Below the pieces are notes generated by a model. It had not been told where the DNA came from, searched no databases, and was given only the letters and a program-made list of their open reading frames with translations. From Isoetes taiwanensis (Eukaryota; Streptophyta; Lycopodiopsida; Isoetales; Isoetaceae): DNA of 64,000 nt. Position 1 is the first letter of the stretch. Each line of letters begins with the position of its first letter. The DNA lies in the NCBI GenBank assembly GCA_021234155.1, contig JAJEKV010000023.1:4857945-4921944 (forward strand). Direction: 5' to 3'. A program made the position numbers and the translations under genes. Shown one piece after another: positions 5,697 through 55,716 of the stretch.

Positions 5697-7030
5697 ATAG
5701 GATCTTGAATACCGCATGCATTTCCTTGATTCCTAAGGTTAAGCAACCTTCTACTATTAATGATTGGAGGCCTATCTCCTTGTTGTCCTCTGTGTATAAG
5801 ATTATTGCGAAAGCCCTGGCAGAGAAGTTGAAGCCGGTGTTGACTTCTTCCATTAGTAAGGTGCAGTCTGGGTTTGTCCCTGGGAGGAACATTTTGACTA
5901 ATGTTGCCGCAGCTTATGAGGGCCTTTATTGGGCCAGAAGAACAGGTCAAGGTATTGCCTATCTTAAGCTTGACTTTGCCAAAGCTTATGATAGTGTCCG
6001 TTGGGAGTTCTTGTCTGCCATGATGTTAGCGTTGGGCCGTGGTCCACGCTTTACAGAGACAGTCACGAAGCTGCATAGGTCAGCACGAGCTACAGTGGTG
6101 TGCCAGGGTGAACCCTCCGCCTTTTTCTCCTTAGGCAGAGGGGTGCGTCAGGGGTGCCCTTTGGCGCCGTTTTTGTTTATGATTGTGGCGGAGGCACTGT
6201 CTCAGTTGTTTTTGGTTGCAGTGGAGGAGGGAGTGGTGGATGGGCTTCGGATGCAGGATGGTAGCCATCAGATTATTAACCAGTTTGCCGATGACACTTT
6301 CCTCTTCTTGGTGGCAGAAGAGAGGAATTTGCGGAATGTGAAGGGTTTGTTGGATACTTTCTCCTTGGCCTCGGGCATTCTTCTGAATTGGGGTAAGTGC
6401 TCCGCATTATGGGCCCAGCTAACTCCGCCTCCCCCTTGTTTGGCTCTATTCCCTTGGAAGGTGCTTCCAGGTAATGTGTGTACTAAGCTGTCGGGTATTC
6501 CATTTGGAGGGGATGTTTCCATGGGGAGGGTGTGGGATGAGATTTTGCAGGGGTTGCAGAAACACCTCAATTGGTGGAAGGGTAGCAAGTTGTCCATGGC
6601 AGGTGGGATCACTATTGCCAAGTCAGTACTTTGTAGCCCTCATGTGTATACAGCATCTGCGATGCTAGCTCCTGAGGGTAAGATACAAGCTTTGGATAAG
6701 ATTGTTCGAAATTTTGTGTGGGGCGGGGATGATGAAGGGGCAGTTGTTAAAGTGGCTTGGTGGAAGTGTCTCCGCCCCCGGGAGGATGGGGGCTTGGCCA
6801 TTCTGGATTTGGCACTACATAGTAAGGTGTTGGTCTCCAAGTTTGTTTGAAGCATTCTGCAGGACGAAGCATCTTCTCCTGGTGCAGCGCTGTTGTTGCA
6901 GTCTCTTCGCCATTGTGTGGCGTTTGGGAAGCCGTCTGTGCATGTGGAGTTGCCCTGGGCACTGTTGTATGGTCTCTGTTTGGGGTCTGGGTTCGGGAAC
7001 TCCTGGAAGACAGCCCTCTGTGAGGACCCG
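5697..7030 (+). mobile_element. L1-type LINE, 5'-truncated, reverse transcriptase part
   Basis: Plus-strand non-LTR reverse transcriptase: ACISLIPKV, NDWRPISLLSSVYKI, SGFVPGRNI, LDFAKAYDSVRWEFL, RQGCPLAPFLF and the catalytic FADD box in INQFADDTFLF near 6275-6310. These motifs are RT blocks in their normal order, and the sequence then runs into the thumb region (KLSMAGGITIAKSVL). A stop at 6848-6850 breaks the frame, but the same frame continues afterwards to GNSWKTALCEDPW. The LINE begins mid-RT inside the copia element, as expected for 5' truncation. It is interrupted at 7030 by a gypsy LTR and continues at 18004. Confidence 0.88.
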
Positions 7031-14461: not shown

Positions 14462-15421
14462 TCAACGGGGAGTTGCGGGGAGGTTCAAGCATCGAAAAGT
14501 GATCAACACGTTGGATTCGATTGCAAGGAGCGGGTAAGGGTCAAGCAAAGCAGCCACAGCCTGGTCCTGATCAAGAGTCATTTCTCCCCAAGGATCAGCA
14601 TATTCGGGGTAGGATGACAGAGGCGGTTTCGCGGTGGAGCCCGAACTTGATAAATATTCTCGAGCTTCTTGAATGCGGTAATGCGAGAGAGAGGGTTCCG
14701 CATGTTCAACAGAAATGATCCTGCCTGTTTGCAAGTCCATGGTGGCATTGAGATGACCATCAGTGATGACTAACTGGTCCGTGGCCCAGTAATGGATACT
14801 CTTGGCCTGGCGGAGAAAAGGTCTGCCGACCAACATTTCATAGTCACCTGGATCTTCGCCAGCTTTCCAAACTCCAAATTCCATGGGGAAGCGGAGATCA
14901 CCGATGTTGATGTGAAGAAGAGGTGTGACGCCTTGAGGTCGCGTGATATGGCCATTAGCCAACTTGATGTCATATGGGGCACGAAAGAGTTGTGTGATGC
15001 CCATTTGTTTGCAGAGTTTATCCGTGATGAGATTGACTGCGCTACCTCCATCTATTTGAACATGGTTGACTTGCTGATTACCCACCGTGGCATGGACCGT
15101 GGGTGTAGAGGTAGCCACAGCCCCAACTAAAACAGTTGGGAGTGGTAACTGGTCCTTGAGAGCAGGACAGAGTTTCAAAATGGTTGCCAAGCTTAAAGGA
15201 ATTTTGATCTTGGCTAGCTCCTCTTGGAGTTCTAGAGGCACATGAGAAAAAGGATCTGCTGGTTCCACGGGTGCTGGAGTGCGTGGTAGTGAAGCAGCAA
15301 CTTCTTTGAGTAAGTCAACCTCTGCAGCAATATTGGGATACGTCTGAGAGCGTGGAGGTTGAGATGTGGAAGGTGTATCTGGTCTTTGTTGAGCTCTGAT
15401 GGTGGCATGAACATTTGCCAA
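14462..15421 (-). pseudogene. Ty3/gypsy aspartic protease region
   Basis: A 319-codon open frame carries the retropepsin-like motif VQIDGGSAVNLITDKL (DGG in place of DTG/DSG, a form common in plant gypsy elements). This is followed by IKLANGHITRPQGV, then FGVWKAGEDPGDYEMLVGRP, the usual downstream beta-strand and flap segments. Upstream residues form a Pro-rich linker to gag, and downstream residues lead towards RT. It is the best-preserved part of this element. Confidence 0.8.
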
Positions 15422-17245
15422 TGTGCGCCTTGGCTGACTTGCATGAGGTTCAAAATGCTTTGGCGAACTTTTGGCATGACATGTGGCATGAGCTTCTCCA
15501 AGTCAGGTGCAAAGTGAACCTTTTTTTCGTCCTCATGAGGAATGGTGTCAACTGCAAAGGCAGGTTGCGGGCCATTCGGAATAATGGTCAAGGGACGTGA
15601 CGTCCTGGTCTGGCGTGAAACTAAACCAACCCAATTTGACGGCTGGACTGGAGGATTAAGTGCCTGAAAAATTTCCTCCTGTGCTTGTCGATCCGGTGAG
15701 GTTGATTTCTTTGGAGCTGGTTGATAAGCGTGATTGCTTTGAGGCGCCACGGGTGGCTTCTTAAGAACTGGTCTCGGGCCTTGTTTGCCATTAGCAATCC
15801 GAGTTGGTAAGCCGGAGGCGGACCCGATGTGGTCTGATTTGTGCCGGGAAGCCGCACACGAACTTGTGGAAGTTGAGGACACGCCGTGGTGGTATGACCC
15901 CATTCTTGGATGTGATAACACCGAAGCTTTAGAAGGATCAAAAGGAGCGTGGGTTGGGTCCCGTTGTTGCCTCTGTTGTCGATAGAGTTGAGTGGGTTGC
16001 TTTTGAAGTGGTGGCTGGGCCGATAGTGCGATTATTCTTGCCGAGGTGTGGTTTGTACTTGATAAACTATTTTGTTGCTTGAACGGTGTGGGATGAGTGC
16101 GAGTGCACTCTTCCGTGGCATGATTGCACATGTTGCATCGCTTGCAATGAGGCGGGCCATTGGTGGAGTTGCACTCATTTGCCAAATGGCCTTGGTATTT
16201 GCAAATATGGCACCGTGATCCGACCTCGGCCGTGGATTAGCGTGTTGAGGTGAAGCAATCGCCATGCGGGAACCATGATAGGTGGAATGAAGCGGGAGCT
16301 CTTGAAGAGCCACGGGGGGGAAACATTGATCCGAGTGATTGACAAGGTTGATAGCCTGCTCCAAAGTCTTGGGACGCAGTATTGATCATGAGTCGAATAG
16401 CTGGAGGAAGTCCTTGGAGAAACCAGACCAAAAACGGCTCGTGTGGGGTACTCCTTGAGCTTACTTAGCGAAGAATGTGAAGTCGATCCGCAAAATCCCG
16501 GAACTCGTGGGCTCTTGTTGCGATTCATTGAGTTGCTTGAGATGAAGTTGATCATCATCCGTGGTCCCATAATGAGACGAAAAGCGATTCGCATTTCCGG
16601 ACCGGTCTTGTTTCAATGGCTTTTGTTGGACATGAGCCATTGATGAGGAGAGCCACGCAGGGTGGTGGAAAAGATGTGGAATTTCAGTTGAGGTTGCGCA
16701 TGACCATTTAGGACAGCTAGAGCCTCAAATTCTTCCATGTGGGCCTGAGCACTTTGGTCTAAGGGTTTGCCTTTCGTGTTGCCAAAGGTGGGATAAGTCG
16801 GGTTTAGTCCGAAAGGTAGATGTGAAAGTGCTTGGCTGGACAGGAACAGTATAGTGAGGATATTGAGGTTGAGTTGGATGTGGCATGGTGCCTGAAGGAC
16901 CCTGATGAAGGGGTGACTGCGGTTGAGGAACTGAAGTTGCTTGAGCATTGGTTTTGAGATCTGTAAGGTTGTAAAACAGTGAAGGGCGTGGGAAATGTAG
17001 GGAAAGGATATTCTGGGTAGGCTTAAAAAGAGACTTGTGGATATCCTTGCCCACCCGGGAGATGATGGTTGTGAAGGAAGAGGCGTATGGCCCCGAAGAA
17101 TGATGGATGTAGGCATATTCAGGTGTATGAAAGTACTGGTTGAGAAGGTTGAGGCTGATAGGGCTCCCCGATAGTGATGAGGTGGCCCGAGGTTGTGAGC
17201 AATGTTTGCACGCTTGGGGCGGGAACGGGGCCGAGGCAGGGACAC
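15422..17245 (-). pseudogene. Ty3/gypsy gag with zinc knuckles (frameshifted)
   Basis: The capsid-like segment MEEFEALAVLNGHAQ followed by FSTTLRGSPHQWL lies at 16613-16745. A helical continuation in another frame (QLHLKQLNESQQ) lies near 16540. Nucleocapsid zinc knuckles follow: CHICKYQGHLANEC and CNMCNHATEEC at about 16100-16220, and CYHIQEWGHTTTAC at about 15870-15930. The long His/Pro/Ser-rich N-terminal part is spread over several frames. This is gag of the same element as the pol at 11530-14360. The leader 17246-17454 shows no clear primer binding site. Confidence 0.72.
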
Positions 17246-20969: not shown

Positions 20970-21940
20970 TTAGTTTTGTCCAAATTTTCTTTTCACATTA
21001 ATTTTTGAGATGTAATGCTCGTTTTTGGAAAAAGATTTGCAAGTACTTACTTCTTCTGTAAGAACTCCCACGGTCGGCGCTTTCGTCTCAGATGTCTCTC
21101 CAACTGCTGCCACCACAGTCTGTCCCCTTCCACGACCAAATGAACTATGACCATGTCCTCGGTTCCATTTCCCTCGATTCGGACATTCTACCTTGATGTG
21201 ACCAAATTCCTCACATCTGTAGCACTGTATTCTCCACCTTCCTCTGCCTCTTCCGCGGCCTCGACCTCTCTCTTCGCTTGGTTCTCTTGCATACAAGGTA
21301 ATAGGGTGTTCCTCTGTCTCCATTGCTGCCACGGTTTTTCCCTCGAAAACCCTTCGGGGCGGGGGTTTTTTAATCCGGGCAGTAATCCGCTTGCTGCGTT
21401 TTTGTATTGGGTCCCATAGACCGATTGGTCTCCGTGGACGATAAAAGTAACTTCCTTCCTTCCTTCCTTCCTGGTATTGGTTTCACCAAAACCTCCTGCT
21501 CAAGCTCTGTCCTAATCGCTTCTATTGCTTCATCCAGAGTAGATATAGTCCTTCTGACTAATATAGTAAGATCTTTAAACGAAATTTGAAATGCTCTGGT
21601 TAAGGCCAATACCTCCTGTTGGTCATTATAATGCGCTCCAGCTCCTTCCAAATCATGCAACAACAATCTAAGGTTTCGTATTAAACCTCTCAAATCATCA
21701 CCTTTTTTGAATTGCAGGTTGCACAATTTCATTTCCAGGATATCGATCTGCGTCGACGTCTTTTCCTCATATCTTTTTAAAAGATACTTCCATATTTCCC
21801 TAGCCTGTTTGTGCTGAATTTCAAGCACAATATCACCACCCAGCTTTGCCATGGTTATAGCTTTGGCAATCTCCCCCCTTTCGTCATCTGAAATCCGATC
21901 TTCCTGAGCTTCCTCAGGCTCTGATGCAAGTAACTATCTT
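20970..21940 (-). pseudogene. Ty1/copia gag with CCHC zinc knuckle
   Basis: The capsid part (21370-21852) contains AREIWKYLLKRYEEKTSTQI, then LCNLQFKKGDDLRGLIRNL, typical of the copia gag UBN2-type domain. After a frame change the nucleocapsid part follows: an Arg-Gly repeat and CYRCEEFGHIKVEC, a classical CX2CX4HX4C knuckle (near 21200-21240). The N-terminal end near 21940 is truncated and no copia LTR is recognised. A CCTT microsatellite lies inside the coding region near 21455-21472. Confidence 0.85.
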
Positions 21941-25479: not shown

Positions 25480-27599
25480 ATGCAACGTGGCAGGATAGAA
25501 GGATCATTACGCGGTATGCGTTCAAGGCTGGCCGCAAGTACCGCAAGTCAAGGAAGCACAAAAGACCTAATATGTGGCCTAGAACGACCCGTTCATGAAA
25601 TTCATGGTTTTCTAACTTTTGGGCGTCCACGAGAAAGAATGAACGACCCTCTCCATCGACAAAGCACTAGCAGTTTTGCCGAACCCGCAGAAAGCCGGTA
25701 CCCTAATCATCCTTATTTTTTCATCTTGTTTTATCTGTTTCTGCATTCAGCTTACCTCCATAAATTGCTTTTTCCCATTTGGCACCCTCCACTTGATATT
25801 TTTGACAGGAAACTCTTGTTGTTTATCAAGTTGTATTGGAGCAATATGGCCAGTGCATGTACAGTTTAACTATATAGGCGAATATCTGCTTTATCTTCTC
25901 CTTAATTTTACTTGCTATGTCATGTAATTTTAAAACATCTGATTTATAAACAATGCAGCGGCAATACTAGACTCTTGCGTTTCTTCTTCCTAAGTTGTTT
26001 TGCCCCCATTTCTTTAAATGATCCTTAGTAAAATCGTCTTTCTTTTGAAATTGGATCTTTAAATTCTCCACATGAAAGGAAAATGTAGGCTTTACAACTA
26101 TGAAACTGGCTTTGCCAGCCCCAGCAATTCTCATGGCATTCCCATTAGAATCCCTCTCTGCTACACCTTAGCTGTAATTCTGGCATCTTTAATGAAGTGC
26201 AAATGTTGCATATCAATTAAGATTTGTATCCAAGGACACAAATGTTGTATGTTACATATGCACGTTCTGTTCTATTTTATTCTACTTTCTTTAAACACGT
26301 TAGCTCACTATTGTTCAAAAGTTTGATACAACTGGTGGCAGTTTTGATGCAGGAGAAGAATCAATTATTCCTGGTCTACCTGACGATTTAGCTTTAAAGT
26401 GTTTGGCAAAGATTTCTCATGGATATCATGGAACCTTGCAAGCTGTTTGCAAGAGATGGTGGTCTCTTCTACAAAGTTCAGAATATGGTCGTGTGCAAAC
26501 TTCTGAAGGGCACTGTGGTGACTGGATTTTTGTTCGCACAGAAGAGCCATCTGATGGACATTGGGTAGCATATGATCCAGCTGCCAAAGCCTGGCATCCG
26601 TTGCCTCCTATTCCTGGGATGAATTCTAATCTTCATTGTGGCTTTGGCACTGCTGTTGTTGCAAACAAACTGCTCATAATTGGTGGCTACTATGGAAGCA
26701 TAGAAACACAGCCTTCCAGTTACTTTGCAACAAATGAGGTCTTGCAGTTTGATCCATTTTACAAGAAATGGAGCAAAGCAGCAAGCATGCAGACAGCTAG
26801 ATGCAACTTTGCATGTGCTGTTGTTGGTGGGAAGGTGTATGTAGCAGGTGGATGCCGGTCATCTAGGAGAAGCCCACTTGTCCATGCTGAAGTTTATGAC
26901 CCTTTGAAGGATAGGTAACTGTGCATTTCAAAATGTTAAAAGGCATGGTTTATAATGCTTTATGTTATCTTAATTTTAATTTGTAGGTGGGAAGAAATAG
27001 CTCCCTTGCCGGGTGCCCGCGAAGATTGTGTGGGCATTAGTCTGAGGGGTTACTTTTATGTTATTGCTGGGGCAATTGAAGAGGAATCAGATCCACGGGC
27101 CTTTGAGGTTTATGATCCTGAGAGAGCAAGGTGGTTTTCCTTGCCTGATGTATGGCTTTATCCACGTCACATGCCATGCCCCATTGCTTCAACAAGCCAA
27201 TATATATGTGCTGTAGATGACTGGGATGGCAATAGGATTAAGCTTTATGATCCCTTAGATAGAGTTTGGAGAGTTTTAGCTCCGGGTGTTCCTACTTTAG
27301 ATGTTAATGGTGAGGAGTCGTCCATGGTAAAGGCTTTTGCTTTTGGTGTTATTACTTTGAGAAATGATCTATATATTCTAGGTGGAAAGTTTATGAAGTG
27401 GGAGCGTGCAAGTGGCCAGTGGAGGAAGTTTGATATTGTAAAGTTGAACACGGTATTTGTGGGAAGTATTTCAACCAGAAGTCATGATGTAACATGGACA
27501 AAGGCGACACCAATGTGGAATTCATATGGGGAGGTCATTGGCTGTGCAGTTTTAGAAGACAACAGCGTGAACCCATGTACTCTTAATCAACCTTCTTGA
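25480..27599 (+). CDS. F-box/kelch-repeat protein (three exons)
   Basis: Exons 25480-25697, 26342-26914 and 26987-27599 join in phase to 467 codons plus stop. Introns are 25698-26341 (gtaccc...cag) and 26915-26986 (gtaact...tag). The F-box lies near residues 82-125 (IIPGLPDDLALKCLAKI, then LQAVCKRWWSLL). Kelch repeats follow, with GYYGS, NFACAVVGGKVYVAGG, EVYDP, YFYVIAGA, IKLYDP and DLYILGG. Such proteins are substrate receptors of SCF ubiquitin ligases, the kelch propeller binding the target. Length and layout resemble plant kelch F-box proteins of the At1g67480 kind (from memory). The first exon, ending at a GTACCC donor, is less certain than the other two. A likely poly-A signal (aataaa) lies near 27738. 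Confidence 0.85.
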
Positions 27600-28457: not shown

Positions 28458-30540
28458 ATGGCTGCCATTCCTCAGATTCCTCCACATGTGGTGAAGGGTT
28501 TATTCCCTCTGATAAGGTCAGTAAGGAGTTTCATCTCCATGTTATTGGAGTCAGAGGTGAGCACATTGGAAGCATTGGCGCAACTTGATATTGGTGCAAG
28601 TGCTTGCTTCATGGATAGTTCGTTCGCTTCTAAGCATGTCATTTCTACAAGCAGGGTTTACACTCCAGCTCCTTCGGCGTGATTGATGGACGTGAGGTCT
28701 CCTCGAACGCAGTCACAAAATGTATTGCACCTCTTCAGGTTCTGCTCGAGGGAGTGTCTTTAGCATTTCCTTCAATCTTATCGCTAGCCCGTATGCACCA
28801 GTAGTCTTGGGTCTTCCTTGGCTCGAGTTGCATAACCCACAGATGATTGGTTGGCGCTTTAGATCATTTTGGTTTGCTGACTCTTGCCCCAGTCCTAATC
28901 CATCTGCAGTTCTTGCCTTCGTGTCCGTATCTACTCTAGTATGTAAAGTATCATGGGCTCTTGATACCGCTCTTGTTCATGCTCCAGTTTTTGTTTTTGC
29001 TCCGTGTCCTGATCCTGTTTCTTCACTGCCTCAGTCCATCTTCTAGATGATGTACTCCCAGCTTCTGCCGCTATTTCGGTTCCTCTGTGCCTGTTTGTAT
29101 TTCAGTTCCTGCTCTTATTCCTATTCTTGATCCTGCTCCTGTCCAGACCCCTATTTCGGTGAAGTCTTCTTCACGTCCTCAGTTTCGTATCTTGAAGATC
29201 TCTCTTCACGAATTTATTAAATCTAGAAGATAAGATCCAAACACAGTATTTGTAATCCAATTTCATCTGTCGACTAGCTCAGTTCTAATAAAGTCTGTTC
29301 CAATGATCCCAGATAAATATGACGATCTTTCTGATGTTCTTGACAAAGTCAAGGCCAGAAAGATCCTAGAGCACCGTCCATATGATTGTCCTATTGATCT
29401 ACAACCCGAGATGATGCTGCCGTATAGACCCATATATGGTCTCTCTCCCGCAGAGTTGGAGATTTTGCAGGAATATGTTGAGAAAACTCTGGCTCAATCC
29501 CGCTTCTGGAGCACCTATTTTCTTCGTCAAAAGGAACGATGATTCTCTGTGTCTAGTCATTGATTACCGAATCAGTATCTGCTTCCTCTAATCCTGGAAA
29601 TGTTGGAACGGCTCCAAGGTGCACACTATTCACAAAGATTAATCTTCAGGGTGCCTACAATCTTATCTGGATTCGTGAAGGTGATGAGTGGAAGACATCA
29701 TTTCGTATGCGCTTTACATAGTTTTGTCTTTTCGGCTCATCAATGCTCCAGCAGTATTCTAGCATATGACCTATGTCTTCCAAGAGTTCTTAGATATTTT
29801 TGTTATCATCCATTTATTCAAAGACTCTCGAAAAACACGAGAAGAATGTTCGACGAGTCCTCCAGAAGCTTCGCGAGCATAGGTTGTATGCTAAACTTGA
29901 GAAATGTTAGTTCAGGATACGGTGGAGTTTCTTGGTTATCGTAGCACTCCTCATGAAGCCTCTATGGATCCCGAAAAAATCAGCACTATTTTGGAGTGGC
30001 AAACATCTTCCATCCAAGATATTCAGTATTTTCTAGAATTTGCCAACTTCTATCGACGTTTTATTTGGGATTATTCAGAGATTGCCCTTCGTTTGACATG
30101 CTTCACGTCAAAGGATGTGTCCTTTGAATGGAGTCAAGAAGCAAAAACTACTTTCGTAACCATGAAGCATGCTTTTACTATGACACCAGTTCTTGCCCAT
30201 GCAAATCCTTCCCGTCCATATGGAGTGGAAGCAGATGCGTCTAATTTTGCTCGTGGTGGCATTCTGTCACAACATGGGGATGACTATGAACTGCATCCGA
30301 TCACATATCACTCGTCCAGAAGTACACATATCACTCACTTCACCACCAGTCGAGATTGATGATCATGAAGAATTTGAAGTTCGAGAAGTTTTGGACTCCA
30401 AGTTCTTGCGACATCGTCTTTATTACCTGATTGATTAGAAAAGATATTCTCCAAGTGATGGAACCTAGGAACCAATCAAGAATCTGTCTAATGCTCCTGA
30501 TAAAATTGCGGAATTCCACAGGCATTACCCGGACAAACCC
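28458..30540 (+). pseudogene. Chromovirus (Ty3/gypsy) pol remnant with chromodomain
   Basis: Plus-strand fragments in order. Protease: LAQLDIGASACFMD (28458-28682). RT start: KYDDLSDVLDKVKARKI, then HRPYDCPIDLQP (29303-29542). RT palm pieces: [25 protein letters not shown]/RNase H: TVEFLGYRSTPHEASMDPEK, then NFYRRFIWDYSEIA (29904-30359). Immediately afterwards comes a chromodomain-like segment (EFEVREVLDSKFLRHRLYYL, then EPIKNLSNAPDKIAEFHRHY, 30360-30540). Most of RNase H and the whole integrase catalytic region are absent, so a deletion joins RNase H to the chromodomain. Several stops and shifts show it is dead. Confidence 0.82.
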
Positions 30541-31865: not shown

Positions 31866-33423
31866 TGTGACGTTCCAGCATAACATATGATATGAATACG
31901 TATATTATACTGACACGTCACTAGTACATGTCGACTCAGACGACATGTACACGGCGACCGTAAAGGGTAGTACCCTAGGGTACGACCTTGTGAACCATTA
32001 TATTGCACATGTTAAAGCAACATGTGAATATAATCCCTTTTTGCCACGTGGCAATGACCCGTTGACCAAAAAGGGACCAGCCCTAAATGCGTGGAGATAA
32101 AGGGGCATAAACCCTAAAAGGGAAACCCTTTCAGTTTTTAGCCCCTGAGTCTCGGATTGAGCGCAGAGGACGATTCCGCTGAGCGAAGCGAAGCAGAAGT
32201 CGGATTTCCTAGGTTGCAGCTCGATCCAAGATCAGCAGACCCGAGATCAGCAGCATGGACGCTTTTAGGGGAGTGGGAATCGGCCAAGATGCGGGTGAGC
32301 AGTTGATTCGATAGGTAGATCCGAGTTATCAGGCCTCTTTCAGTAGGTTTAGCATTCATTCTTAGCTATAGGCGACCCCTACAGCCTAAGAATGATAGAC
32401 ACTAACAAAGGAACCTAACCATGTATGATTAGGTAGATTAGAATAGATGTATTCTATTATTTTCAGTTCTGTTGTGATGATGTTTTGACATTCTATGCGC
32501 CACTCTTGTGTATTGGGAAGGGGGGTAGAGACCCAGAGCCCAAGTAGTTGTATGATCATAGTTTTAGCCCATTAATTCCCACCACGCGGCTCGTGCATAA
32601 GAGCCCTTTGGCCGTGGGTGGCGGAGCTAGACCGGCTGACAAGGAAGGGCTTGTCTGATCACAGTTGATCCCTCTGGTGCGTAGCGACGGCCGGGGAACA
32701 TTGTGGACTAGGCCTAATACCCTGGCACTGCGTGCGGGCAGGGTATGGGCTCGACACCTCTTGGGTGATGCGTCATCTTCTAGGGGTTCAAGTCGTATAC
32801 GAGTAGTGGCTCTCTAGCTCGCCTGTGATTGGCATGAACCTTCTGGGGGAGAGTAATCTTCTCCTGCCTCATCGGGAGCTGGGGAGATGCAACCCAGTAG
32901 TAGCCCCTTTGGCTATGCACCCGGCAGGCTACGGTCAGGCTCCAATACTTTTCAGCCTATCTGCAAAGTATGCACAAGAGGGGTGGATGGAGTGGACTAC
33001 CCAACGACCATGTTTCTATGCCAGCCAAATCCATTTGCCATGAATTCTGTCTGCATTGCTATCCGGAGACCCAAGCCGTCAGTCTTTCCCCAAGAGTCGG
33101 AGCCTGGGTAGGATTTCCCCATGTTATGTTGATGTACTGATGTGTTGTTGCAGCTACTGTGAGATGGTGGACCACCCTTCGAGGTGGGTATGTTATTGTT
33201 GATTGATGTCATGTGCTCATGTGTGTTTACGCTTTCGCAGCTAGATCGATCCCGAGGGAGACGGGATGAATGACACGTCCATTCTTCCCCGTCGGGTTCT
33301 TGGCCACCAACAAGGGCCCGATGTTAGGTGGACGACCTCATGTCAGCAAGCAGATGCTGGTTTGAGGGATGATCTCCAGTTTGTATACGATCGGGGCATC
33401 GTATAGGAGCTGGGGCCGTCACA
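31866..33423 (+). mobile_element. 5' LTR
   Basis: 1558 bp, starting TGTGACGTTCC and ending GGGGCCGTCACA. It matches 40925-42947 along its length except near the 3' end. It holds conserved blocks seen reversed in the LTRs at 1-885 and 19209-20853. It should contain the element's promoter and poly-A signals, but I cannot place a transcription start with confidence. Confidence 0.92.
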
Positions 33424-33424
33424 A

Positions 33425-33437
33425 TGGTATCAGAGCC
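33425..33437 (+). promoter_or_regulatory. Primer binding site, complementary to initiator tRNA-Met
   Basis: TGGTATCAGAGCC begins two bases after the 5' LTR end. TGGTATCAGAGC is the common plant LTR-retrotransposon site complementary to the 3' end of initiator methionine tRNA. Confidence 0.9.
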
Positions 33438-33680
33438 TTGATCTTGGCAGACCAAGATCGAGCACCCGTATTCCTATAGGAACTAACTAATCTAGACATT
33501 TAGTCTTGGAGATAAAAGCCCAAGCACGAACCTCGAGTAGTGGGAATTTTTTTTTTCTCCCCACGAATAGAGTTAATAACTATCTAGAATTAGGATAATT
33601 AGAGAACATAATTTAGATGAAGTAGATTGAAGAAAAGTCACCTAAGAAAGTCTAGCAAATTTTAGACACTTTTTGGCTGA

Positions 33681-34168
33681 CACCTCCAAGGATGCGCCAG
33701 GAGCATGTTAGGTCCAGACCTAACTGGTCTCTCGCGCATGCTTAGAGGGGTCACCCCATATGAACCCTAGAACTCGGCCTTAGGAGCCCCAAATTGTAAA
33801 ATATAAGATGAAATCCCGCTTAAAAAGCTCGAATTGGCTAGATTTGTATGATAAAACATTCAAAAACATTAAGTAAAAGTCATTTTGGAGCAACACCTCT
33901 AAGGATGCGCCAGACACTAGTTAGGTCATGACCTAACACCCTTCTCGCGCATGCTTAGAGGGGTCCCTCAAAAGTAACCTCGGAATTTGATCGAAACTTA
34001 CTCAAAGTGAAAAAGTAATGATAGAATCTGGCTTAGAATGCTTCAATTAGTTGGAAATGCATGTTCATTTATTTAAGTTGGATAAGTTTAAAGCAAGAAG
34101 GGGCAACACCTCTAAGGATGCGCCAGGGCATAGTTAGGTCCGGACCTAATGCGCATGCTTAGAGGGGT
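33681..34168 (+). repeat. Three nested-hairpin repeats upstream of the histone ORF
   Basis: Copies lie at 33681-33751, 33894-33964 and 34107-34168, with starts exactly 213 bp apart. Each begins CACCTCTAAGGATGCGCC (or CACCTCCAAGG) and ends GCGCATGCTTAGAGGGGT. These arms pair over about 18 positions with two mismatches. Inside, TTAGGT and ACCTAA form a second stem. The third copy lacks a few bases in the 3' arm spacer. The sequence between copies is also loosely similar, so these are degenerate tandem units of about 213 bp with a well-kept hairpin core. Confidence 0.88.
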
Positions 34169-34390
34169 TCGAGCGAAAATGGTTGAAGAAGACCTAGCTT
34201 CGATTCGAGATATGGAGGATTTCATCAACAAACCAAGAAAATAAGCAACTAGGCCAAACCCTAAAATTTTAACCCTATAAATTAGTGGACTTAGACCTCA
34301 TTTTTAGGTTTTTTTTTCAAATGATTTTTTTCGAGCTCGTCCCAATAGGCGATCTTCGGGCGCCCTGATCCAAATCAATCTCTGTCAAAT

Positions 34391-35433
34391 ATGGCTAGAA
34401 CGAAGCAGACCGCTCGTATGGTAAGGAACGACGATAGGCACAGCGCCCAGGTCCTCGCCGCCGAGCAGAAACTCAAAGATGCCGAAGAGAGATTGAAGGC
34501 CGACATGGAGAGGCGACCTAGATACTACCGAAATCTAGAGAAGAGGCGGAAGAAAGAGGAGAAGGCAAAGAAGAAAGCACAGAAAGCAGCCGAGGAGGCC
34601 GAAGAAAACCAATGGCGGGAACAAAGGTCGAAGAACAGGGAAGAAAAAGACAGGAAGGGCAAGGGAGTGATGACGGAAGAGCCACCAAAGAAGAAGAAGA
34701 AGAGATCGGTCGGCATCGTCATCGGCGAATGACCCGAAGACGACCAACCCTCATCGTCATCAGAAGATTCAGGTGATACGCGGAACTTCTTGGATAAGGT
34801 ATTTGACGGAATTGGAGAATCCTCGAAAAAGAAGCAGAAGCGTCATCCCGAGCCCGAGGAACCCCAAGAAGAGAGAGGGACCCCAGCCCAGGACCCGACA
34901 GAACCACCGGTTGAACAACCCCCACCGTTTCCACAATGGCAATAGACGAAGAAGTCAGGGGGAGGCAAAGCAGCCGCGAAGAAGTCGGGAGGAGGCAAAA
35001 CGGCGAGGGACTCGTATATAGTGCGTATTACGAGGCGTACAAGGTGAAATACATTGAAGGAGGGCGGCCAACACGGGAGATATTTCAGCTGAAACCTCCA
35101 CCAGAGCTTCCGAACCCCCCACAGAAGCCCGCGAGAAGATCCCAAGATTCAGTATTTGGGAAAGCCTTGCGAGAAATCCGACACTTCCAATGGAGTCACG
35201 GATTTCTTATACCCAGAGCTGCATTCCAGAGACTTGTCCGGGAGATTTTGTGGGATTACGGCCCCGGCAAGTGAGTAACCAACGACATGTTACTCGCTTT
35301 GCAAGAAGCGGCAGAGATGGAGGTCGTGCAACACTTTGAAGACTCGTTGGCATGCACACTCCACGCAAAAAGAGTCACTATGACACCGAAAGACATGAGA
35401 CTGGCGAAGTACATCAAGAGAATAGACAAATAG
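34391..35433 (+). pseudogene. Histone H3-like protein with a very long tail, encoded by the LTR element (decayed)
   Basis: The first codons read MARTKQTARMVRNDD. Residues 2-9 are identical to histone H3 positions 1-8; the next residue, H3 Lys9, is Met. A tail of about 250 residues follows, Lys/Glu/Arg-rich with a PPKKKKKR nuclear-localisation-like run. After a frameshift near 35015, frame 1 (35164-35433) aligns without gaps to the H3 core from Ala47 to the end: ALREIR, FQRLVREI, ALQEA, HFEDSLAC and HAKRVTMTPKDMRLA. By hand I count about 42 of 89 positions identical to canonical H3. Loop 1 has canonical length, which argues against CENH3. Breaks are TGA at 34730, TAG at 34943 and TGA at 35272 (aligned to H3 Arg83), plus the shift. 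If translated from an intact relative, it could enter nucleosomes or compete for H3 readers. That is inference. Confidence 0.88.
34946..35014 (+). repeat. Duplicated KKSGGGKAA-type segment in the H3-like tail
   Basis: In the reading frame of the H3-like N-terminus this segment encodes KKSGGGKAAAKK followed by SGGGKTARDS. It is an imperfect duplication of a 36-bp unit, with local resemblance to the KSTGGKAPRK and ATKAARKS parts of the H3 tail. It lies just upstream of the frameshift. Confidence 0.5.
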
Positions 35434-35572
35434 GACAGAAAATACTTTTTGTAACTAAGGAACTTATATGTAAAGTGTGAAAATTTTGAATAATAAGGAT
35501 GTATAGTTGGTTAAAATGTGCATGAGATCAAGTGTAGTAGCAATTAAGGAGCAAATGGGAAAATTTGGTCAA

Positions 35573-35857
35573 CACCTCCAAGGATGCGCCAGACACCAGT
35601 TAGGTTCCAACCTAACTATGCTCTCGCGCATGCTTAGAGGGGTCCAACCAACTGGACCATTGATCAGCCACTTCCCTGCTCCAAATGAAGTAAATAAGCA
35701 CACAAACTTGTAGTTCAGAAGAAAATAAGTAGGAATTCACCTCTTACAACTTGTTTGGCATCATTTGGACACAAAAAAAGGACCAACACCTCCAAGGATG
35801 CGCCAGAGGCCACTTAGGTCCCAATCTAACTATGCTCTCGCGCATGCTTAGAGGGGT
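35573..35857 (+). repeat. Two nested-hairpin repeats downstream of the histone ORF
   Basis: Copies at 35573-35643 and 35787-35857, starts 214 bp apart, with the same outer arms (CACCTCCAAGGATGCGCC and CGCGCATGCTTAGAGGGGT) and inner TTAGGT/ACCTAA-type stem as the three upstream copies. In the fifth copy the inner arm has one change (CTTAGGT with TCTAA). Confidence 0.88.
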
Positions 35858-36157
35858 CCGAGTTTTCAAAACCCCATAACTTGTGATAGACATATCCAAA
35901 TCAGCCAAAAATTGTTGCATTAGAACCCTGAAACTCTATGGAATCCATTTTTATCTCTCAATTAACTTAGAAACATCAACCTTCACCTCAAAATGTCAAA
36001 AGTTTGAGGAACCCTAAAATTTTAGGTTAGAAAACTCTTATAAATACCCTCATACACCCCAAGCAATACCTATAAACTTGCTCCTGCTCCCAAGGCGATT
36101 TTCCAGTCTCCTTAAGCACTTCCAGCTCCGTTCGATATCAACATTACGCTCGTCCTC

Positions 36158-37346
36158 ATGGCTATGTCATCATTCATCAACTGGTACAGCGCCCCTCCCC
36201 AGGTTGCTCAGGTAAGATGTTGGCTTAGTATTCCAAGTTTTCCAGAAAGAATTAGACTTGCCTGCAACTCTGAATTCAAACCCATCCTACCAACAAGTTC
36301 TGCAAGAATTCCAAGAGAAAGTAGCTCCCAGCTTGCAAGAAATACCCCCATGCATAGGGTACTTTGTACCAAAGACAGTGTTGCAAACAGCCCTAGGTCA
36401 TATACCCAACATTGCTAAATTGCTGCAGAATAGGACCGAGCGCCTACCCAATTACATGACCCTGAGCAATAATAGAAAGAGATTCTCCTCTTACAACGCG
36501 GCCTTAGCACTATACTTATTCTATAGGGCCCAAACCGTGGTAGGAGAGCCGTCAATCCAGCCACTAGAGATTACACCCTTGGACTCGGCAGCAGACGAGC
36601 AACTAATGCTTGAGTATGAGCAGTCCAAAGCGGAATCATCCAAAGCAAGAGAGGACTTAGAGGATGAAAGTGAAGATGAAATGGAAGTGGACCCAGAGGA
36701 AGAACGCCGGGAAGCAGAACAAGATGTTGGCCGTTTCGAAGCTGACAGGGGCACACCTAGGATAGCACAACCAATCGGGTTGGGAATAACAAGCCTAGCG
36801 CCGATCATAGTTGAAGGGCAGGAATATTTGATCCTAAACGATATAAAAAACCTTCCCGAATGTAGGGACAGAGGCTATCGCATCGACGAACTTCTCCACC
36901 TCCTGCGGCAGCAGGCAGACTTGGATGACTTCATCGACCAAGAAATCGATGAATTTCCTGTGGAGGTAAGGGAAACAGCCACTTACACAGGACACACGAT
37001 CTCCGATATCGAAGCCTATAGCACCATCGGAGGCATGATGAATGAAGAGCAGCTGCCGACAGAAGAAGAGTTTGTGGCACTCCAAGAACGGATGGGAATA
37101 AGAGGGAAGACAACAAGAGCACTTCAAGCTGACAGGAGCATTTCGGCAAAAAGAGAGTTCAAGATAATAGCCAGGCTATTCAACGTCAAGAGTATACCTA
37201 AGGCAGGTACTTCTTCAACTCAAGGGTCAAGCTGCGCAGATATAAGGATCCATCATCCCGACAACATAGCCAGCAAGGAAGAGAGCCATGATGCTTTACT
37301 TGCCAGAGAGACCGACATGCATAGAGGGACAAAGGTCAGGAACTGA
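36158..37346 (+). CDS. Second ORF of the H3-carrying element: unrecognised protein with acidic stretch
   Basis: The uninterrupted frame 36258-37346 gives 362 codons. An earlier in-context start at 36158 (MAMSSFINWYSAPPQVAQ) is in another frame, so a small intron beginning at GTAAGA (36212) or a frameshift may link them. The N-terminal part looks helical (FVPKTVLQTALGHIPNIAKL, then SYNAALALYLFYRAQ). The centre is strongly acidic (EDLEDESEDEMEVDPEEE). The C-terminal half is mixed, with NDIKNLPECRDRGYRIDELL. I do not recognise a gag, protease or polymerase motif. It may be a gag substitute. Acidic stretches also occur in histone chaperones, but that link is speculative. After the stop, another frame stays protein-like to about 37460. 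Confidence 0.55.
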
Positions 37347-40911: not shown

Positions 40912-40924
40912 AAGGTGGGGAGAA
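40912..40924 (+). promoter_or_regulatory. Polypurine tract of the H3-carrying element
   Basis: AAGGTGGGGAGAA immediately precedes the 3' LTR start TGTGAC, as expected for the plus-strand primer. Confidence 0.85.
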
Positions 40925-42947
40925 TGTGACATTACAGCATAACGTACGATATGAATACGTATATTATACTGACACGTCACTAGTACATGTCGACTCAGAC
41001 GACATGTACACGGCGACCGTAAAGGGTAGTACCCTAGGGTACGACCTTGTGAACCATTATATTGCACATGTTAAAGCAACATGTGAATATAATCCCTTTT
41101 TGCCACGTGGCAATGACCCATTGACCAAAAAGGGACCAGCCCTAAATGCGTGGAGATAAAGGGGCATAAACCCTAAAAGGGAAACCCTTTCAGTTTTTAG
41201 CCCCTGAGTCTCGGATTGGAGCAGCAGAGGATGCATTTCCGCCTGAACGGAAGCAGAGAAGTCGGATTTCCTAGGTTGCAGCTCGATCCAAGATCAGCAG
41301 ACCCGAGATCAGCAGCATGGACACTTTTAGGGGAGTGGGAACCGGCCAAGATGCGGGTGAGCAGTTGATTCGATAGGTAGATCCGAGTTATCAGGCCTCT
41401 TTCAGTAGGTTTAGCATTCATTCTTAGCTATAGGCGACCCCTACAGCCTAAGAATGATAGACACTAACAAAGGAACCTAACCATGTATGATTAGGTAGAT
41501 TAGAATAGATGTATTCTATTATTTTCAGTTCTGTTGTGATGATGTTTTGACATTCTATGCCACTCTTGTGTATTGGGAAGGGGGTAGAGACCCGAGCCCA
41601 AGTAGTTGTATGATCATAGTTTTAGCCCATTAATTCCCATTAATGCGGCACGGCATAAGAGCCCGCTCGGGCGGGTGGGTGGCGGAGCTAGACCGGGTGA
41701 CAAGGAAGGGCTTGTCCGATCACGTTGATCCTTCCGTGCGTAGCGGACGGCCGGGAACATTGTGGGCTAGGCCTAATACCGCACCGCGTATGGGGCGGGG
41801 TATGGGCTCGACACCTCTTGGGTGATCGCGCCAAGAACCGGCCAAGATGCGGGTGAGCAGATTGATTCGATAGGTAGATCCGAAGTTATCGGGCCTCTTT
41901 CAATGGAGGTTTAGCATTCATTCTTAGCTATAGGCGCACCCCCCTGACCCTAAGAATGATAGACACTAACAAAGGAACCTAACCATGTATGATTAGGTAG
42001 ATTAGAATAGATGTATTCTATTATTTTCAGTTCTATTGTGATGATGTTTTGACATTCTATCGCCACTCTTGTGTATTGGAAAGGGGGTAGAGACCCGTGA
42101 GCCCAAGTAGTTGTATGATCATAGTTTTAGCCCATTAATTCCCAATTAACGCGGCTCAGGCATAAGAGCTCGCTTTGGTCGGGGGTGGGTGGGAGCTAGA
42201 CCGGCCGACAAGGAAGGGCTTGTCCGATCACAGATTGATCCCTCTCAGTGCGTAGCGGCGGCGGGGAACATTGTGGGCTAGGCCTAATACCCCCGCACCT
42301 TTGCGTGCGGCGGGTGGTATGGGCTCGGCAACTCTTGGGTGATGCGTCATCTTCTAGGGGTTCAAGTCGTATACGAGCAGTGGCTCTCTAGCTCGCCTGT
42401 GATTGGCATGAACCTTCTGGGGGAGAGTAATCTCCTCCTGCCTCATCGGGAGCTGGGGAGATGCAACCCAATAGTAGCCCCTTTGGCTATGCACCCGGCA
42501 GGCTACGATCAGGCTCCAATACTTTTCAGCCTATCTGCAAAGTATGCACAGGAGGGGCGGATGGAGTGGACTACCCAAGGACCATGTTTCTATGCCAGCC
42601 AAATCCATTTGCCATGAATTCTGTCTGCATTGCTATCTGGAGACCCAAGCCGTCAGTCTTTCCCCAAGAGTCGGAGCCTGGGTAGGATTTCCCCATGTTA
42701 TGTTGATGTACTGATGTGTTGTTGCAGCTACTGTGAGATGGTGGACCACCCTTCGAGGTGGGTATGTTATTGTTGATTGATGTCATGTGTGTTTACGCTT
42801 CCGCAGCTAGATCGATCCCGAGGGAGACGGGATGAATGACACGTCCATTCTTCCCCGTCGGGTTCTTGGCCACCAAGAAGGGCCCGATGTTAGGTGGACG
42901 GCCTCATGTCAGCAAGCAGATGCTGGTTTGAGGGATGATGAGTCACA
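40925..42947 (+). mobile_element. 3' LTR with internal tandem duplication and small deletion
   Basis: Matches the 5' LTR but is 2023 bp long. A segment starting at 41339 is repeated in tandem from 41835 (offset 496 bp). Near the end, 44 bp present in the 5' LTR (after GGGATGAT) are replaced by GA, but the terminal GTCACA and the CACTT target duplication remain. Differences from the 5' LTR cluster in GC-rich blocks around 41640-41830 and 42140-42330. Confidence 0.88.
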
Positions 42948-44651: not shown

Positions 44652-44918
44652 TTGCAGCTTGTTAGTCCGAGCGCTGCGATGGGGCATCTTCCGGCCGGAA
44701 TGCTCCATTTGTGCATTACATCTCGACGCTGGAGCTTTCACCACAATTTAAGATGGCCGCCGGATTTGAATCTTCTTTTCCGGCGCTTCTTTTGCAATGT
44801 AAGAGCCTCCTCTTCCTCAGTTCATTCTCTTTCCTCCCTCGAACTTGCTTCAATTCGATGTTTTTTAGATAATTTTTGTAGAGCCTCATTCAGGCGAAGA
44901 AGACAGGAAATGGGTTGA
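44652..44918 (+). CDS. Possible organelle-targeting leader of the PPR protein (different frame)
   Basis: An 88-codon frame rich in Arg, Ser and hydrophobic residues and poor in acidic ones (HLCITSRRWSFHHNLRW, then RRFFCNVRASSSSVHSL). It ends in FRRRRQEMG just before the PPR frame. This is the composition of a mitochondrial or plastid transit peptide. The PPR frame itself opens only at about 44868, after a stop. A one-base shift, a tiny intron or a sequence error would fuse the two. Confidence 0.4.
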   Translation: MQLVSPSAAMGHLPAGMLHLCITSRRWSFHHNLRWPPDLNLLFRRFFCNVRASSSSVHSLSSLELASIRCFLDNFCRASFRRRRQEMG

Positions 44919-44946
44919 GTATGCTTCCTGTGATGACAAGAGAAGT

Positions 44947-47343
44947 ATGCTCAACTTCCGTGGCGATGGACGTATAATGGAAGCACTTGGGATTCTTGAA
45001 AAAGGGAAGATTGAAATGTCGAGAAACGATGCCTATTGCTTATTGCAGGAGTGCATCAGATGTAGGGACCTTGTGTCTGGCAGGCGAGTGCAGTTGCTTA
45101 TGATCCAGAAGGGGTTTCATTCTGTTTCCATTTTGAGTGCCCATCTAATTCGCTTGTTTTGTGTTTGCCAGTGCTTGGATGAAGCAAACCAAGCATTTCA
45201 AAGTGTATTACAGCCAAACACTCATCCATGGAGTGCAGTTATTTCTGCTCATATCAACCTGGGAAGTTCTGGGATAGCATTGGAATTATATTTTAGAATT
45301 CCTGCATCAGACGTGCTAAGCAAGGAGCATGTTTATGTTGGTGGCCTGAAAGCATCCTCTTTGTCCTTGGCCCTTGTTCATGGAAGACTGATTCATGAGG
45401 AAGTTATCCAAAACCGTGATCAATGTGATATCTTTGTGGAAAACGCTTTAGTGGACATGTACATGAAATGTGGGACATTAAAAGAGGCAGAAAAGGTCTT
45501 TGATAAAATGTCCAATCGGGATGTGATATCATGGAGCACAATGATTGCTGGATATGTCCAACATGGCCTAGGACTTCTAGCTCTAGAATGTTTCAGCAAC
45601 ATGCAATTCGATAATGTTAAGCCAAGTATTTTTACGTTTTCAAGTATTTTGAAAGCATGTGGTACCATTGGGGCCATAGAGCATGGCAGATACATTCATA
45701 TGCAAATCGATAGAAGTGGCCTTCATGTGGATGCTGTTATAGAGATTGCCCTTCTTGATATGTATGCCAAATGTAAAAGCTTTAAAGAAGCATGCCAAAT
45801 CTTCAATAGATTGCCAAATCAACCTCAAAATTCTTGGAGCGCACTAATTTCTGGATATTCTGAGTGTGATGAAGGTGTCCTTGCTATAGAATGTTTTTGT
45901 GATATGCAGGCTAAGGGTGTTAAGGCAGATACGGTCACGTTTTCAAGCGTGTTAAAAGCTTGTGGCAATACTGGTGCAGCAGAATATGGGAGACTGTTTC
46001 ATGAGCAGATAATTGGAAGCGGGCTCTATTGGGATGTTGTCTTGTGGGATGCCATTCTTGATATGTATATGAAATGTAAGTGCTTCAAGGAGGCACGTCA
46101 AATATTTGACAACTTGCCAAATCCAGATGAGATGTCTTGGGGTATAATGATTTCTGGTTACGCCAAGCATGGTGAAGGCCTTAATGCCCTAGAATGTTTT
46201 GATGAAATGCAACTCAAAGGAATAGAACCAAATAAAGGCACATTTCAGGGTATGTTAAAAGCATGTGGCATTGTTGGAGCAGTAAAGCAAGGCAAGAAAA
46301 TTCATGAGCAAATAATCAAACATGGGTTCCACATGGATCCGGGTGTGGGGATCACCATTGTTGATATGTATGCAAAATGTGGGTGCTTTGATGACGCAGT
46401 TAAAGTGTTTAATGAGTTGCCAGATCAAAATGTAGTGGCATGGGGATCACTTATAGCAGGTTATGCTCAATGTGCAAACTCCAAGCTAGCACTGCAGTGG
46501 TTTGACAGCATGTTACAAAAGGGCATCAAGCCAAATGAAATCATATTTTCAAGTTTATTTGCTGCTTGCAGTCATGCAGGTCTAGTAAATGAAGGTCGTG
46601 AATACTTCAAATCGATGAAAGAAGACCATGGAATTGTACCTGATATTTGCCACTACTCGGGCATGGTTGATCTCCTTAGTCGTGCGGGGTGCTTGAACGA
46701 GGCAAAGAATTTGCTGACTTTGCAGCCTGATGTTTGTGGTTGGACATCTTTGCTTACTGCCTGCAGGACATATGGCAATGTGGAGCTAGGAAATCATTGC
46801 TTTAATCAGGTCATTCAATTAGATCCAGTTACTGCTACAGGGCACATGCTAATGTTGGGCATTTATGCCAATGCCGGGATGTGGGAGGATGCTAAAAAAC
46901 TAGAAGAAGAAAGAAAATGTGGATCTATATGGAAAAAGCCTGCCAAGGCATGGACTGAGGTAAACGACAAGGTGCATGAGTTTATTGTTGGGGACAGGCT
47001 CCATCCACAAAGTAATGAGATTTTTCTAACCTTAAAAGATTTCCAGGAAAGAATGAAGATTGAAGGATACATACCACAGGAAAACATATTGCACCAAATG
47101 TTGAACCAAGATTGGGAACAGGCCTTCTCTAGGCATTGTGAAAGACTGGCCATAGCTTTTAACATTATCAGTACATCTCCAGGTGCAACTATTCGTGTCA
47201 CAAAGAACCTCCGTGTATGCATGGAGTGCCATGCTGTGACAAAATTCATTTCCAAATTTGAAAAGAGAGAAATCATAATAAGGGATCCATGCCGCATTCA
47301 TCACTTTAAGGATGGTTTTTGTTCTTGTGGAGACTACCACTGA
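44947..47343 (+). CDS. PLS-class pentatricopeptide repeat protein with DYW:KP domain
   Basis: An intronless frame of 798 codons. Residues of about 30-600 form PPR repeats with phrases such as VDMYMKCGTLKEAEKVF, DVISWSTMIAGYVQ and LLDMYAKC. E-type motifs follow. The PG box is replaced by KKPAKAW (663-669). The deaminase-like DYW domain carries HCE (730-732) as HxE, C758 and C761 as CxxC with H762 next, and a final CSCGDYH. Canonical DYW proteins read EPGCSW, HSE and DYW at these places. Such proteins act in mitochondria or plastids, binding one RNA site by the PPR code and editing it. The KP variant is associated with U-to-C editing. The frame is open 26 codons upstream of this Met, so a longer N-terminus is likely (see 44652-44918). 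Confidence 0.93.
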   Translation: MLNFRGDGRIMEALGILEKGKIEMSRNDAYCLLQECIRCRDLVSGRRVQLLMIQKGFHSVSILSAHLIRLFCVCQCLDEANQAFQSVLQPNTHPWSAVISAHINLGSSGIALELYFRIPASDVLSKEHVYVGGLKASSLSLALVHGRLIHEEVIQNRDQCDIFVENALVDMYMKCGTLKEAEKVFDKMSNRDVISWSTMIAGYVQHGLGLLALECFSNMQFDNVKPSIFTFSSILKACGTIGAIEHGRYIHMQIDRSGLHVDAVIEIALLDMYAKCKSFKEACQIFNRLPNQPQNSWSALISGYSECDEGVLAIECFCDMQAKGVKADTVTFSSVLKACGNTGAAEYGRLFHEQIIGSGLYWDVVLWDAILDMYMKCKCFKEARQIFDNLPNPDEMSWGIMISGYAKHGEGLNALECFDEMQLKGIEPNKGTFQGMLKACGIVGAVKQGKKIHEQIIKHGFHMDPGVGITIVDMYAKCGCFDDAVKVFNELPDQNVVAWGSLIAGYAQCANSKLALQWFDSMLQKGIKPNEIIFSSLFAACSHAGLVNEGREYFKSMKEDHGIVPDICHYSGMVDLLSRAGCLNEAKNLLTLQPDVCGWTSLLTACRTYGNVELGNHCFNQVIQLDPVTATGHMLMLGIYANAGMWEDAKKLEEERKCGSIWKKPAKAWTEVNDKVHEFIVGDRLHPQSNEIFLTLKDFQERMKIEGYIPQENILHQMLNQDWEQAFSRHCERLAIAFNIISTSPGATIRVTKNLRVCMECHAVTKFISKFEKREIIIRDPCRIHHFKDGFCSCGDYH

Positions 47344-55260: not shown

Positions 55261-55716
55261 GGGAAAAACTCTGAAATACCCTTATGTTTTGCTAAAATTA
55301 ATAAAACGCCCCTAGTTTTGGGGGTATTTTAATGGAAATGATCATAAAGTTTTTGTGATGATCCAAATGAGAATGAGCCTTTCAGAACTATTGTAAAGGA
55401 GAATAAGATCTTTCCATCAAAGGTAAGATCATATAAATCGGAGTCTTAAATCACAAGTTATGCTATTTTTAATACACAAGAAAATTGTAGAAATTTCAGA
55501 GGGATTTACGAGACCATAACTTGAGATTTCGGAATCCGATTCAGGAGATGTTAACTTTCATGGAAAGATCTCAAATTCTTCTACAATATATCTGAAAGAC
55601 TCATTCTCATTTGGATCATCACAAAAAAGTTATAATCATTTCCATAAAAATACCCCCAAATCTAGGGGCGTTTTGTTAATTTTAGCAAAACATAAGGGTA
55701 TTTCAGAGTTTTTCCC
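55261..55716. mobile_element. Foldback MITE with long terminal inverted repeats
   Basis: The left end GGGAAAAACTCTGAAATACC is matched by the reverse complement of the right end. Pairing with few mismatches continues for about 165 bp inward, through the GGGGGTATTTTAATGG and TGATGATCCAAATGAGAATG blocks. Flanks read TATGTTGTT and TATGTTTAA, compatible with a degraded 9-bp target duplication as made by Mutator-like elements. No coding capacity. Confidence 0.78.

Follow-up and report, generated by a model that had tools for sequence, protein, structure and literature searches.

A lineage of Ty3/Gypsy retrotransposons in Isoetes taiwanensis carries a gene that ends in a histone H3 fold

The window analysed here is a stretch of 64,000 nucleotides from Isoetes taiwanensis (assembly GCA_021234155.1, contig JAJEKV010000023.1, positions 4,857,945 to 4,921,944 of the forward strand). 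It contains a retrotransposon with long terminal repeats (LTRs) whose first open reading frame (ORF), ORF1, starts like the tail of histone H3 and ends in the H3 histone fold. Relatives of this gene form two groups in our tree, one comprising types A, A2, and A3 (support 89) and the other types B and B2 (support 100); the window copy is of type B. The parts of the window element are as follows.

31866..33423, + strand: 5′ LTR (TGTGAC...GTCACA), about 94% identical to the 3′ LTR by BLAST as far as 33373, ends read from the sequence
33425..33442, + strand: primer binding site (PBS), read from the sequence, beginning TGGTATCAGAGCC, one base past the 5′ LTR
33675..33768, + strand: hairpin unit 1 of 5, folding at -43.7 kcal/mol
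33888..33968, + strand: hairpin unit 2, -37.0 kcal/mol
34100..34172, + strand: hairpin unit 3, -31.3 kcal/mol
34391..35433, + strand: ORF1, type B H3-fusion gene, broken by three stops (34730, 34943, 35272) and by a change of frame at about 35.02 kb; open relatives are L029-L044
34391..34420, + strand: H3-tail start MARTKQTAR, then M, retained in open type B relatives
35125..35415, + strand: H3 histone-fold core with the stop at 35272 inside, Pfam Histone 5.6e-19
35565..35648, + strand: hairpin unit 4, -36.5 kcal/mol
35779..35862, + strand: hairpin unit 5, -37.4 kcal/mol
36216..37343, + strand: ORF2 (stop-to-stop frame), at the same place as ORF2 in type A and B relatives
40912..40924, + strand: polypurine tract AAGGTGGGGAGAA, read from the sequence immediately 5′ of the 3′ LTR
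40925..42939, + strand: 3′ LTR with an internal tandem duplication of about 0.5 kb (41339-41830 / 41835-42346)

With its LTR pair, PBS, and polypurine tract all present, the window element is an LTR retrotransposon. The TGGTATCAGAGC primer site, which we take to be of the tRNA-iMet type, lies at 33425, about 1 kb before ORF1. The tandem duplication (41339-42346, copies about 90% alike) is confined to the 3′ LTR, which also lacks the approximately 50 bp that end the 5′ LTR. The distance between the LTRs amounts to 0.064 over one part but to 0.019 over another, and since these parts disagree, no single age is assigned to the element. No gag or pol was detected inside it with type A gag-pol as query; the element is a decayed member of its lineage without detectable gag-pol. 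Its near relative L048 (main aligned blocks 92-97% identical) has both LTRs and an open ORF1, and gag-pol was not detected there either. We therefore place the window element in a reduced type B group that retains ORF1 and ORF2. The strong hairpin of about 80 nt occurs three times upstream and twice downstream of ORF1 (33675-34172 and 35565-35862), and the set of five is also found in L048; the units are possibly an RNA signal or a translation or insulator element. The leader from the LTR end to ORF1 (33424-34390) contains 21 ATGs, so that ORF1 expression may use spliced RNA or unusual initiation.

ORF1 of the window opens with an ATG at 34391 and MARTKQTAR and continues with a long charged stretch, while the H3 core is encoded in another frame. 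The initial annotation had proposed a histone H3 inside an LTR element on this layout, from the MARTKQTAR start to the H3 fold at the end, between the PBS and the polypurine tract, and a hidden Markov model search bears out the histone match. The two open C-terminal pieces of the core reach 9.4e-5 and 1e-9 against Pfam Histone separately and 5.6e-19 when joined with an X at the stop, and histone H3.3 is the top solved-structure match of the window core piece (1.7e-19). The window ORF1 is a non-functional, broken copy of a real gene.

The H3-fusion family is large and has open copies in this genome. From a Pfam Histone search of the 1.66-Gb assembly, the best 150 of 8705 loose first-look candidates were scored. 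In the first 15 of these places the match begins at profile position 2; eight of them were fetched, and all are ordinary H3. The remaining 135 begin later in the profile (positions 4 to 25), many of them within open frames of 300-494 codons, and each of the 20 that were fetched from this set, picked for long frames, is a fusion protein whose C-terminal end is formed, exactly or nearly, by the H3 core. A search with the window H3 piece likewise yielded a best 150, the window included, out of 8779 loose candidates, a total which, like the 8705 above, is not a copy number. The last of these matches still has an E-value of 3e-51 and 66% identity, and the 19 fetched, again picked for long frames, comprise 16 copies of type B and three of type B2. 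The initial annotation had suggested a search for intact copies; copies with an open ORF1 exist in the same genome. Pfam Histone E-values in ORF1 are 2e-43 (L013, type A), 3.3e-42 (A2), and 1.2e-41 (A3) for one copy each and 5.5e-21 to 1.6e-23 for five type B/B2 copies; H3.3 is also the top solved-structure match of a B2 copy. The ORF1 fold is the H3 histone fold, nearest to H3 among the core histones. Annotation calls for caution here, since in a genome of this kind many open frames with an H3 domain belong to transposons.

The relatives share the order PBS, ORF1 with its C-terminal H3, ORF2, and gag, protease (PR), and reverse transcriptase (RT). Among the 20 loci fetched by H3, 18 have a TGGTATC site upstream of ORF1, which in 15 loci reads TGGTATCAGAG; ORF2 follows ORF1 in 19, and a gag-PR-RT match is present within the 10 kb fetched in 17, though L010 and L020 show just a part of it. 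ORF1 comes first in the gene order after the PBS. The type A element L013 encodes ORF1-H3, Ty3_capsid, protease, RT, one in-frame stop codon, RNase H (RH), integrase (INT), and Chromo (6.3e-8), and is without ORF2. It has the Ty3/Gypsy chromovirus order of gag-PR-RT-RH-INT plus chromodomain, an order seen in full in L013, the sole element whose 3′ part lay in the fetched stretch. The type B element L049, with an open ORF1, ORF2, and pieces of gag-PR-RT, follows the same plan as type A. Both LTRs are seen in the window element and in L048, and an LTR end and PBS in type A loci. Together, these loci show that the lineage consists of Ty3/Gypsy retrotransposons with an ORF1 fusion ending in an H3 fold.

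ORF2 of L049 aligns to type A ORF2 at 23% identity, and L017:5075-6520 is a further example of this ORF2, which is alignable between type A and type B elements. Pfam gives no match for the window ORF2 frame and nothing significant in six ORF2 relatives (best E 0.071), and ORF2 has no PDB match. The ORF1 proteins of A, A2, and A3, which are 41-46% identical across groups over the whole protein, have in common an N-terminal domain of about 200 residues (e.g., L011:3484-4100), for which three scanned copies returned no significant Pfam match.

Elements drawn by gag show that, as far as the lineage was sampled, an H3 gene is one of its regular components. With L013 gag as query, the best 150 of 13502 loose candidates were scored, and the places so obtained are those closest to L013, at 93-100% in gag. 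For 14 of them, spread through the list, 1 kb was taken about 3 kb upstream, and ORF1-H3 is present there on the correct strand in 12. By alignment, the core is free of stops and frame breaks in seven of the 12 (L052, L056, L058, L059, L060, L061, and L063). That a host H3 gene was inserted just once, into a single element, is favored by nothing beyond the window itself; relatives that carry this ORF in the corresponding position rule it out and leave it practically no probability. The 12 gag-drawn elements, together with L048, thus uphold the earlier claim that the H3 belongs to the element.

Selection on ORF1 was followed by pairwise ratios of nonsynonymous to synonymous divergence (dN/dS; Nei-Gojobori, medians, pairs with dS of 0.05-1.5 retained) in 16 type B copies and in 16 type A copies (three with an incomplete N-terminus), each set with 120 possible pairs. 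Median dN/dS in type B is 0.071 for the first ten codons (82 pairs), 0.195 for the linker (110), 0.157 for the pre-core (106), and 0.072 for the H3 core (120). The type A values are 0.160 for the N-terminal domain (70 pairs), 0.224 for the linker (54), 0.126 for the tail-like part (103), and 0.036 for the H3 core (115). As a yardstick, gag-pol gives 0.064-0.099 (six pairs of four elements, partly overlapping stretches). Proportions of differences pooled over all pairs (pN/pS) are higher and keep the same order of regions, with 0.106 for the B core, 0.111 for the B tail, 0.301 for the B linker, 0.059 for the A core, and 0.401 for the A linker. The values well below 1, by which the initial annotation had proposed to recognize a functional protein, show that the H3 core is under strong purifying selection.

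It could be argued that ORF1 is a passenger, a captured host gene carried without use, as the core is interrupted in the window copy and in five of the 12 gag-drawn ones. This is very improbable: across large synonymous distances, the core is under purifying selection comparable in size to that on gag-pol, and 12 of the 14 gag-drawn elements have an H3 ORF. Since selection has preserved the histone in working order, our data suggest that elements of the lineage use their own H3 to deal with plant chromatin.

The residues kept and lost differ between the groups. Core identity to host H3 is 81-84% in A, 84-85% in A2, 87% in A3, 43-47% in B, and 44-50% in B2. C110, H113, A114, K115, R116, T118, K122, L126, and I130 are present in every tallied A, A2, B, and B2 copy (16/16 in A, 16/16 in B), and D123 in 16/16 of type A and 15/16 of type B; we take C110, H113, R116, D123, and L126 to be residues of the H3-H3′ four-helix bundle. 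Type A further has R40, R42, T45, R49, K56, R69, R72, K79, R83, and F84 in 16/16 copies. Residues 86 and 87, presumably within the patch by which chaperones distinguish H3 variants, are unlike host H3 in every group. Three A2 copies carry Y41, H87, and L90, which we assume to be part of the plant H3.3 set; the fetched host H3s have Y41, S or T at 87, and L90.

The full tail, with K4, K9, K14, K27, and K36 directly before the core, is missing from the element H3s. The ARKS context of K9 and K27 is missing from 19 of the 20 A/A2/A3 copies, and in the remaining one (L028) it sits in the linker. Type A retains an internal TGGK remnant in 14/16 copies; its proteins have a different start and lack a free H3 tail. 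Type B retains H3 residues 1-9, which are followed by about 270-290 other residues. Here, the codons for R2, T3, K4, Q5, A7, and R8 vary silently with the residues mostly unchanged; K4 is retained in 15/16 and K9 in 14/16 open copies, exact MARTKQTARK is found in 9/16, and S10 is changed to V or P in 16/16. The net charge of the whole ORF1 is +12 to +32 in 16/16 type B copies and positive in 39/39 element copies scanned.

Residues such as LIPRAAF prompted us to consider a CENH3 origin of type B. CENP-A-type loop 1 insertions are absent from the element cores, and the 60 solved matches shown each for the window piece and a B2 copy are named H3 types, one window-piece match being an H3.1/CENP-A chimera. 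The tree joins the long B branch to P0012 and P0021 with a support of only 58, the CENH3 label of P0021 being our own assignment and host CENH3 standing outside the comparison. A CENH3 origin is thus unsupported by the solved-structure matches, and the tree does not settle it.

Judged from these sequence features, the likeliest reading, to which we give an even chance, is that ORF1 is a chromatin protein that partners host H4 through its core and works within nucleosomes or on them, where it would mark the chromatin of the element or tether the integration machinery. The core, with its H3-H3′ residues intact and in type A also the nucleosomal DNA contacts, would pair with host H4, and ORF1 would be placed in, or docked on, nucleosomes of element DNA or of target sites. 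For type A, the retained DNA contacts would favor true nucleosomes without silencing sites: as the ARKS contexts of K9 and K27 are missing at tail positions, these nucleosomes would be unable to receive the usual silencing marks. In type B, the free N-terminus presents nothing but the K4/K9 segment, with a long charged arm leading to the core, and the lost contacts together with this arm would favor docking or tethering with the K4/K9 segment displayed. As an outcome, the element might resist silencing and/or guide its integration machinery to chromatin that suits it. Marks on histone H3 are a main means by which LTR retrotransposons are kept in check; if the proposal is true, this lineage, whose own H3 selection has preserved in several subfamilies, is a direct case of a mobile element that turns the silencing substrate of its host against the host or steers its integration with H3. 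The many copies are, moreover, natural experiments in what histone H3 can lose and keep.

A stronger form of this proposal would have the element provide a histone variant of its own that packs its DNA into nucleosomes which the host cannot silence, a private chromatin. The type A H3 without K9/K27 methylation context at the tail and the change of residues 86-87 in each group are the basis for it, and we consider it possible but doubtful. Alternatively, ORF1 might be a tether only, its H3 core and charged arm binding H4, histone chaperones, or chromatin and thereby leading the preintegration complex into the nucleus and to chromatin, with no stable nucleosome being formed. Type B, which retains the H3-H3′ residues but has replaced DNA-contact residues, the charge of its ORF1, and the position of ORF1 as the first gene past the PBS fit such a role; however, type A retains its ten residues from R40 to F84 in 16/16 copies at a dN/dS of 0.036, beyond the needs of a tether, and we regard it as rather unlikely that tethering is all ORF1 does.

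The free ARTKQTARK of type B could also serve as a decoy that occupies readers, writers, or erasers of H3K4 and H3K9 near the element and thereby weakens silencing, and the first ten codons do vary synonymously but hardly in protein. Yet S10 is replaced throughout type B, and because type A has no free H3 tail, this cannot be a shared function; we hold a decoy to be improbable. Histones of some DNA viruses are thought to condense viral DNA, and an ORF1 that is net positive in every copy scanned and conserved together with gag might similarly condense element cDNA in the virus-like particle. Against packaging of this kind stand the presence of H3 alone, with no other core histone found in the frames scanned, and the formation of the particle in the cytoplasm, which make it quite improbable.

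Several observations weigh against ORF1 as a chromatin protein conserved throughout the lineage. ORF1 was not found in two of the 14 gag-drawn elements (L050 and L062) within the kilobase examined, and in five of the 12 that have it the core is not intact, being split in L055 and broken in L051, L053, L054, and L057; the gag sample itself represents only the 150 copies nearest to L013. The copies behind the dN/dS values were picked for long open frames, a choice which leaves missense changes unfiltered, and their pairs are non-independent, so that no P value is attached. In type B, R40, Y41, R42, K56, R63, K79, F84, and R129 are replaced in 14-16 of 16 copies, and type B may therefore not form an ordinary nucleosome. 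Structure models of type A ORF1 and ORF2 are too weak to contribute (mean pLDDT 46.5 and 33.9), and a fold search with this weak ORF1 model returned nothing at E <= 0.001. By eye, the L013 chromodomain seems to lack Y24 and Y48, two of the three aromatic cage residues, both of which are named in the available text of PMC3350952; a link between chromodomain and H3 tail is therefore unsupported. Finally, the tree does not decide between one capture and two for A and B, as the length of the B branch leaves its joining point unsettled.

With regard to the age of the capture, the median uncorrected proportion of synonymous differences (pS) between element and host H3 cores is 0.87-0.93, compared with 0.81 between A and A2 cores and 0.66 among eight host H3 genes. 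As the element-host values exceed those among host genes, the capture appears to be old and to predate the split of these host genes; with synonymous sites near saturation, it is given no date. We infer one capture before A and B parted because ORF2 and the place of ORF1 are common to both.

Elsewhere in the window, an open frame of 824 codons (44869-47340) encodes a PPR-DYW protein, which we take to be an RNA editing factor of land-plant type and which fits a land-plant host, and a piece of an F-box/kelch gene lies at 26304-26915. Other retroelement remains occupy 5642-6847, 14465-15502, 21373-21933, and 29357-30278 (RVT_1, a weak gag-protease, copia gag, and Gypsy RT/RNase H). A long inverted repeat at 55261-55716 has arms of 226 nt that are 84% complementary and 4 nt apart, and from 57954 to the window end at 64000 blocks are repeated at a spacing of about 1 kb and more, 84-95% alike.

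The initial annotation had stated that no described plant retrotransposon encodes a histone, and this is uncontradicted: judged by titles and the beginnings of abstracts, the papers listed include no histone-bearing LTR element, and there is no such retrotransposon among the protein matches listed (one list of 25, the best 120 of 4377, and the best 120 of 1474). In the best-120 lists, the hits are histone-domain proteins and 22-52% of the query is covered; since protein sets often omit the genes of transposons, these lists do not show absence from other plants. When six ORF1s were compared by blastp with the 25 listed histone-domain proteins, the core and at most about 60 preceding residues aligned, and the rest of the extension aligned in none. 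Several of the 25 are long-tailed H3-like proteins with a loosely similar layout, in which a long extension precedes a final H3 core. The top-listed protein, from Rhododendron, was rejected as a relative, as it consists of two H3s in tandem. Four H3-like proteins that are alike (P0015, P0016, P0018, and P0023; source ENA) have long N-terminal extensions, unalignable to ORF1 beyond about 60 pre-core residues, and lie on separate contigs; they are perhaps another mobile H3 family. Phage records and viral contigs gave no match.

Among known systems, viral histones such as bracovirus H4 and those of giant viruses are alike in that a mobile or viral genome encodes a core histone; they belong to DNA viruses of other hosts, and the likeness drawn here is one of description. 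Chromoviruses, as described in the available text of PMC2864245 and PMC3350952, share the PBS, gag (Ty3_capsid), PR, RT, RH, and integrase with Chromo seen in L013, whereas the lineage analysed here adds an H3-fusion ORF1 before gag and, in 19 of the 20 H3-fetched loci, ORF2 as well; that text names neither of these two ORFs. The nearest precedent is fungal: the portion available of PMC3538342 reports a hAT DNA transposon of Pyrenophora tritici-repentis with a histone H3-like gene, H3L, in 26 very similar, recently spread copies. There too, a mobile element carries an H3-type gene in many copies, but it is a fungal DNA transposon, in contrast to diversified plant LTR retrotransposons with an H3 fusion under measured purifying selection. 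The angiosperm element screen of PMC9289625, in the part available, names CHROMO, PMD, AIR1, G-patch, KOW, ArgoL2, B3, and AlkB and no histone. The Gypsy elements that it describes from orchids, which captured an AlkB RNA demethylase, differ in the gene and its function, and they are alike in that a plant Gypsy lineage has gained and retained a host-type gene as an extra ORF (PMC9289625, same part).
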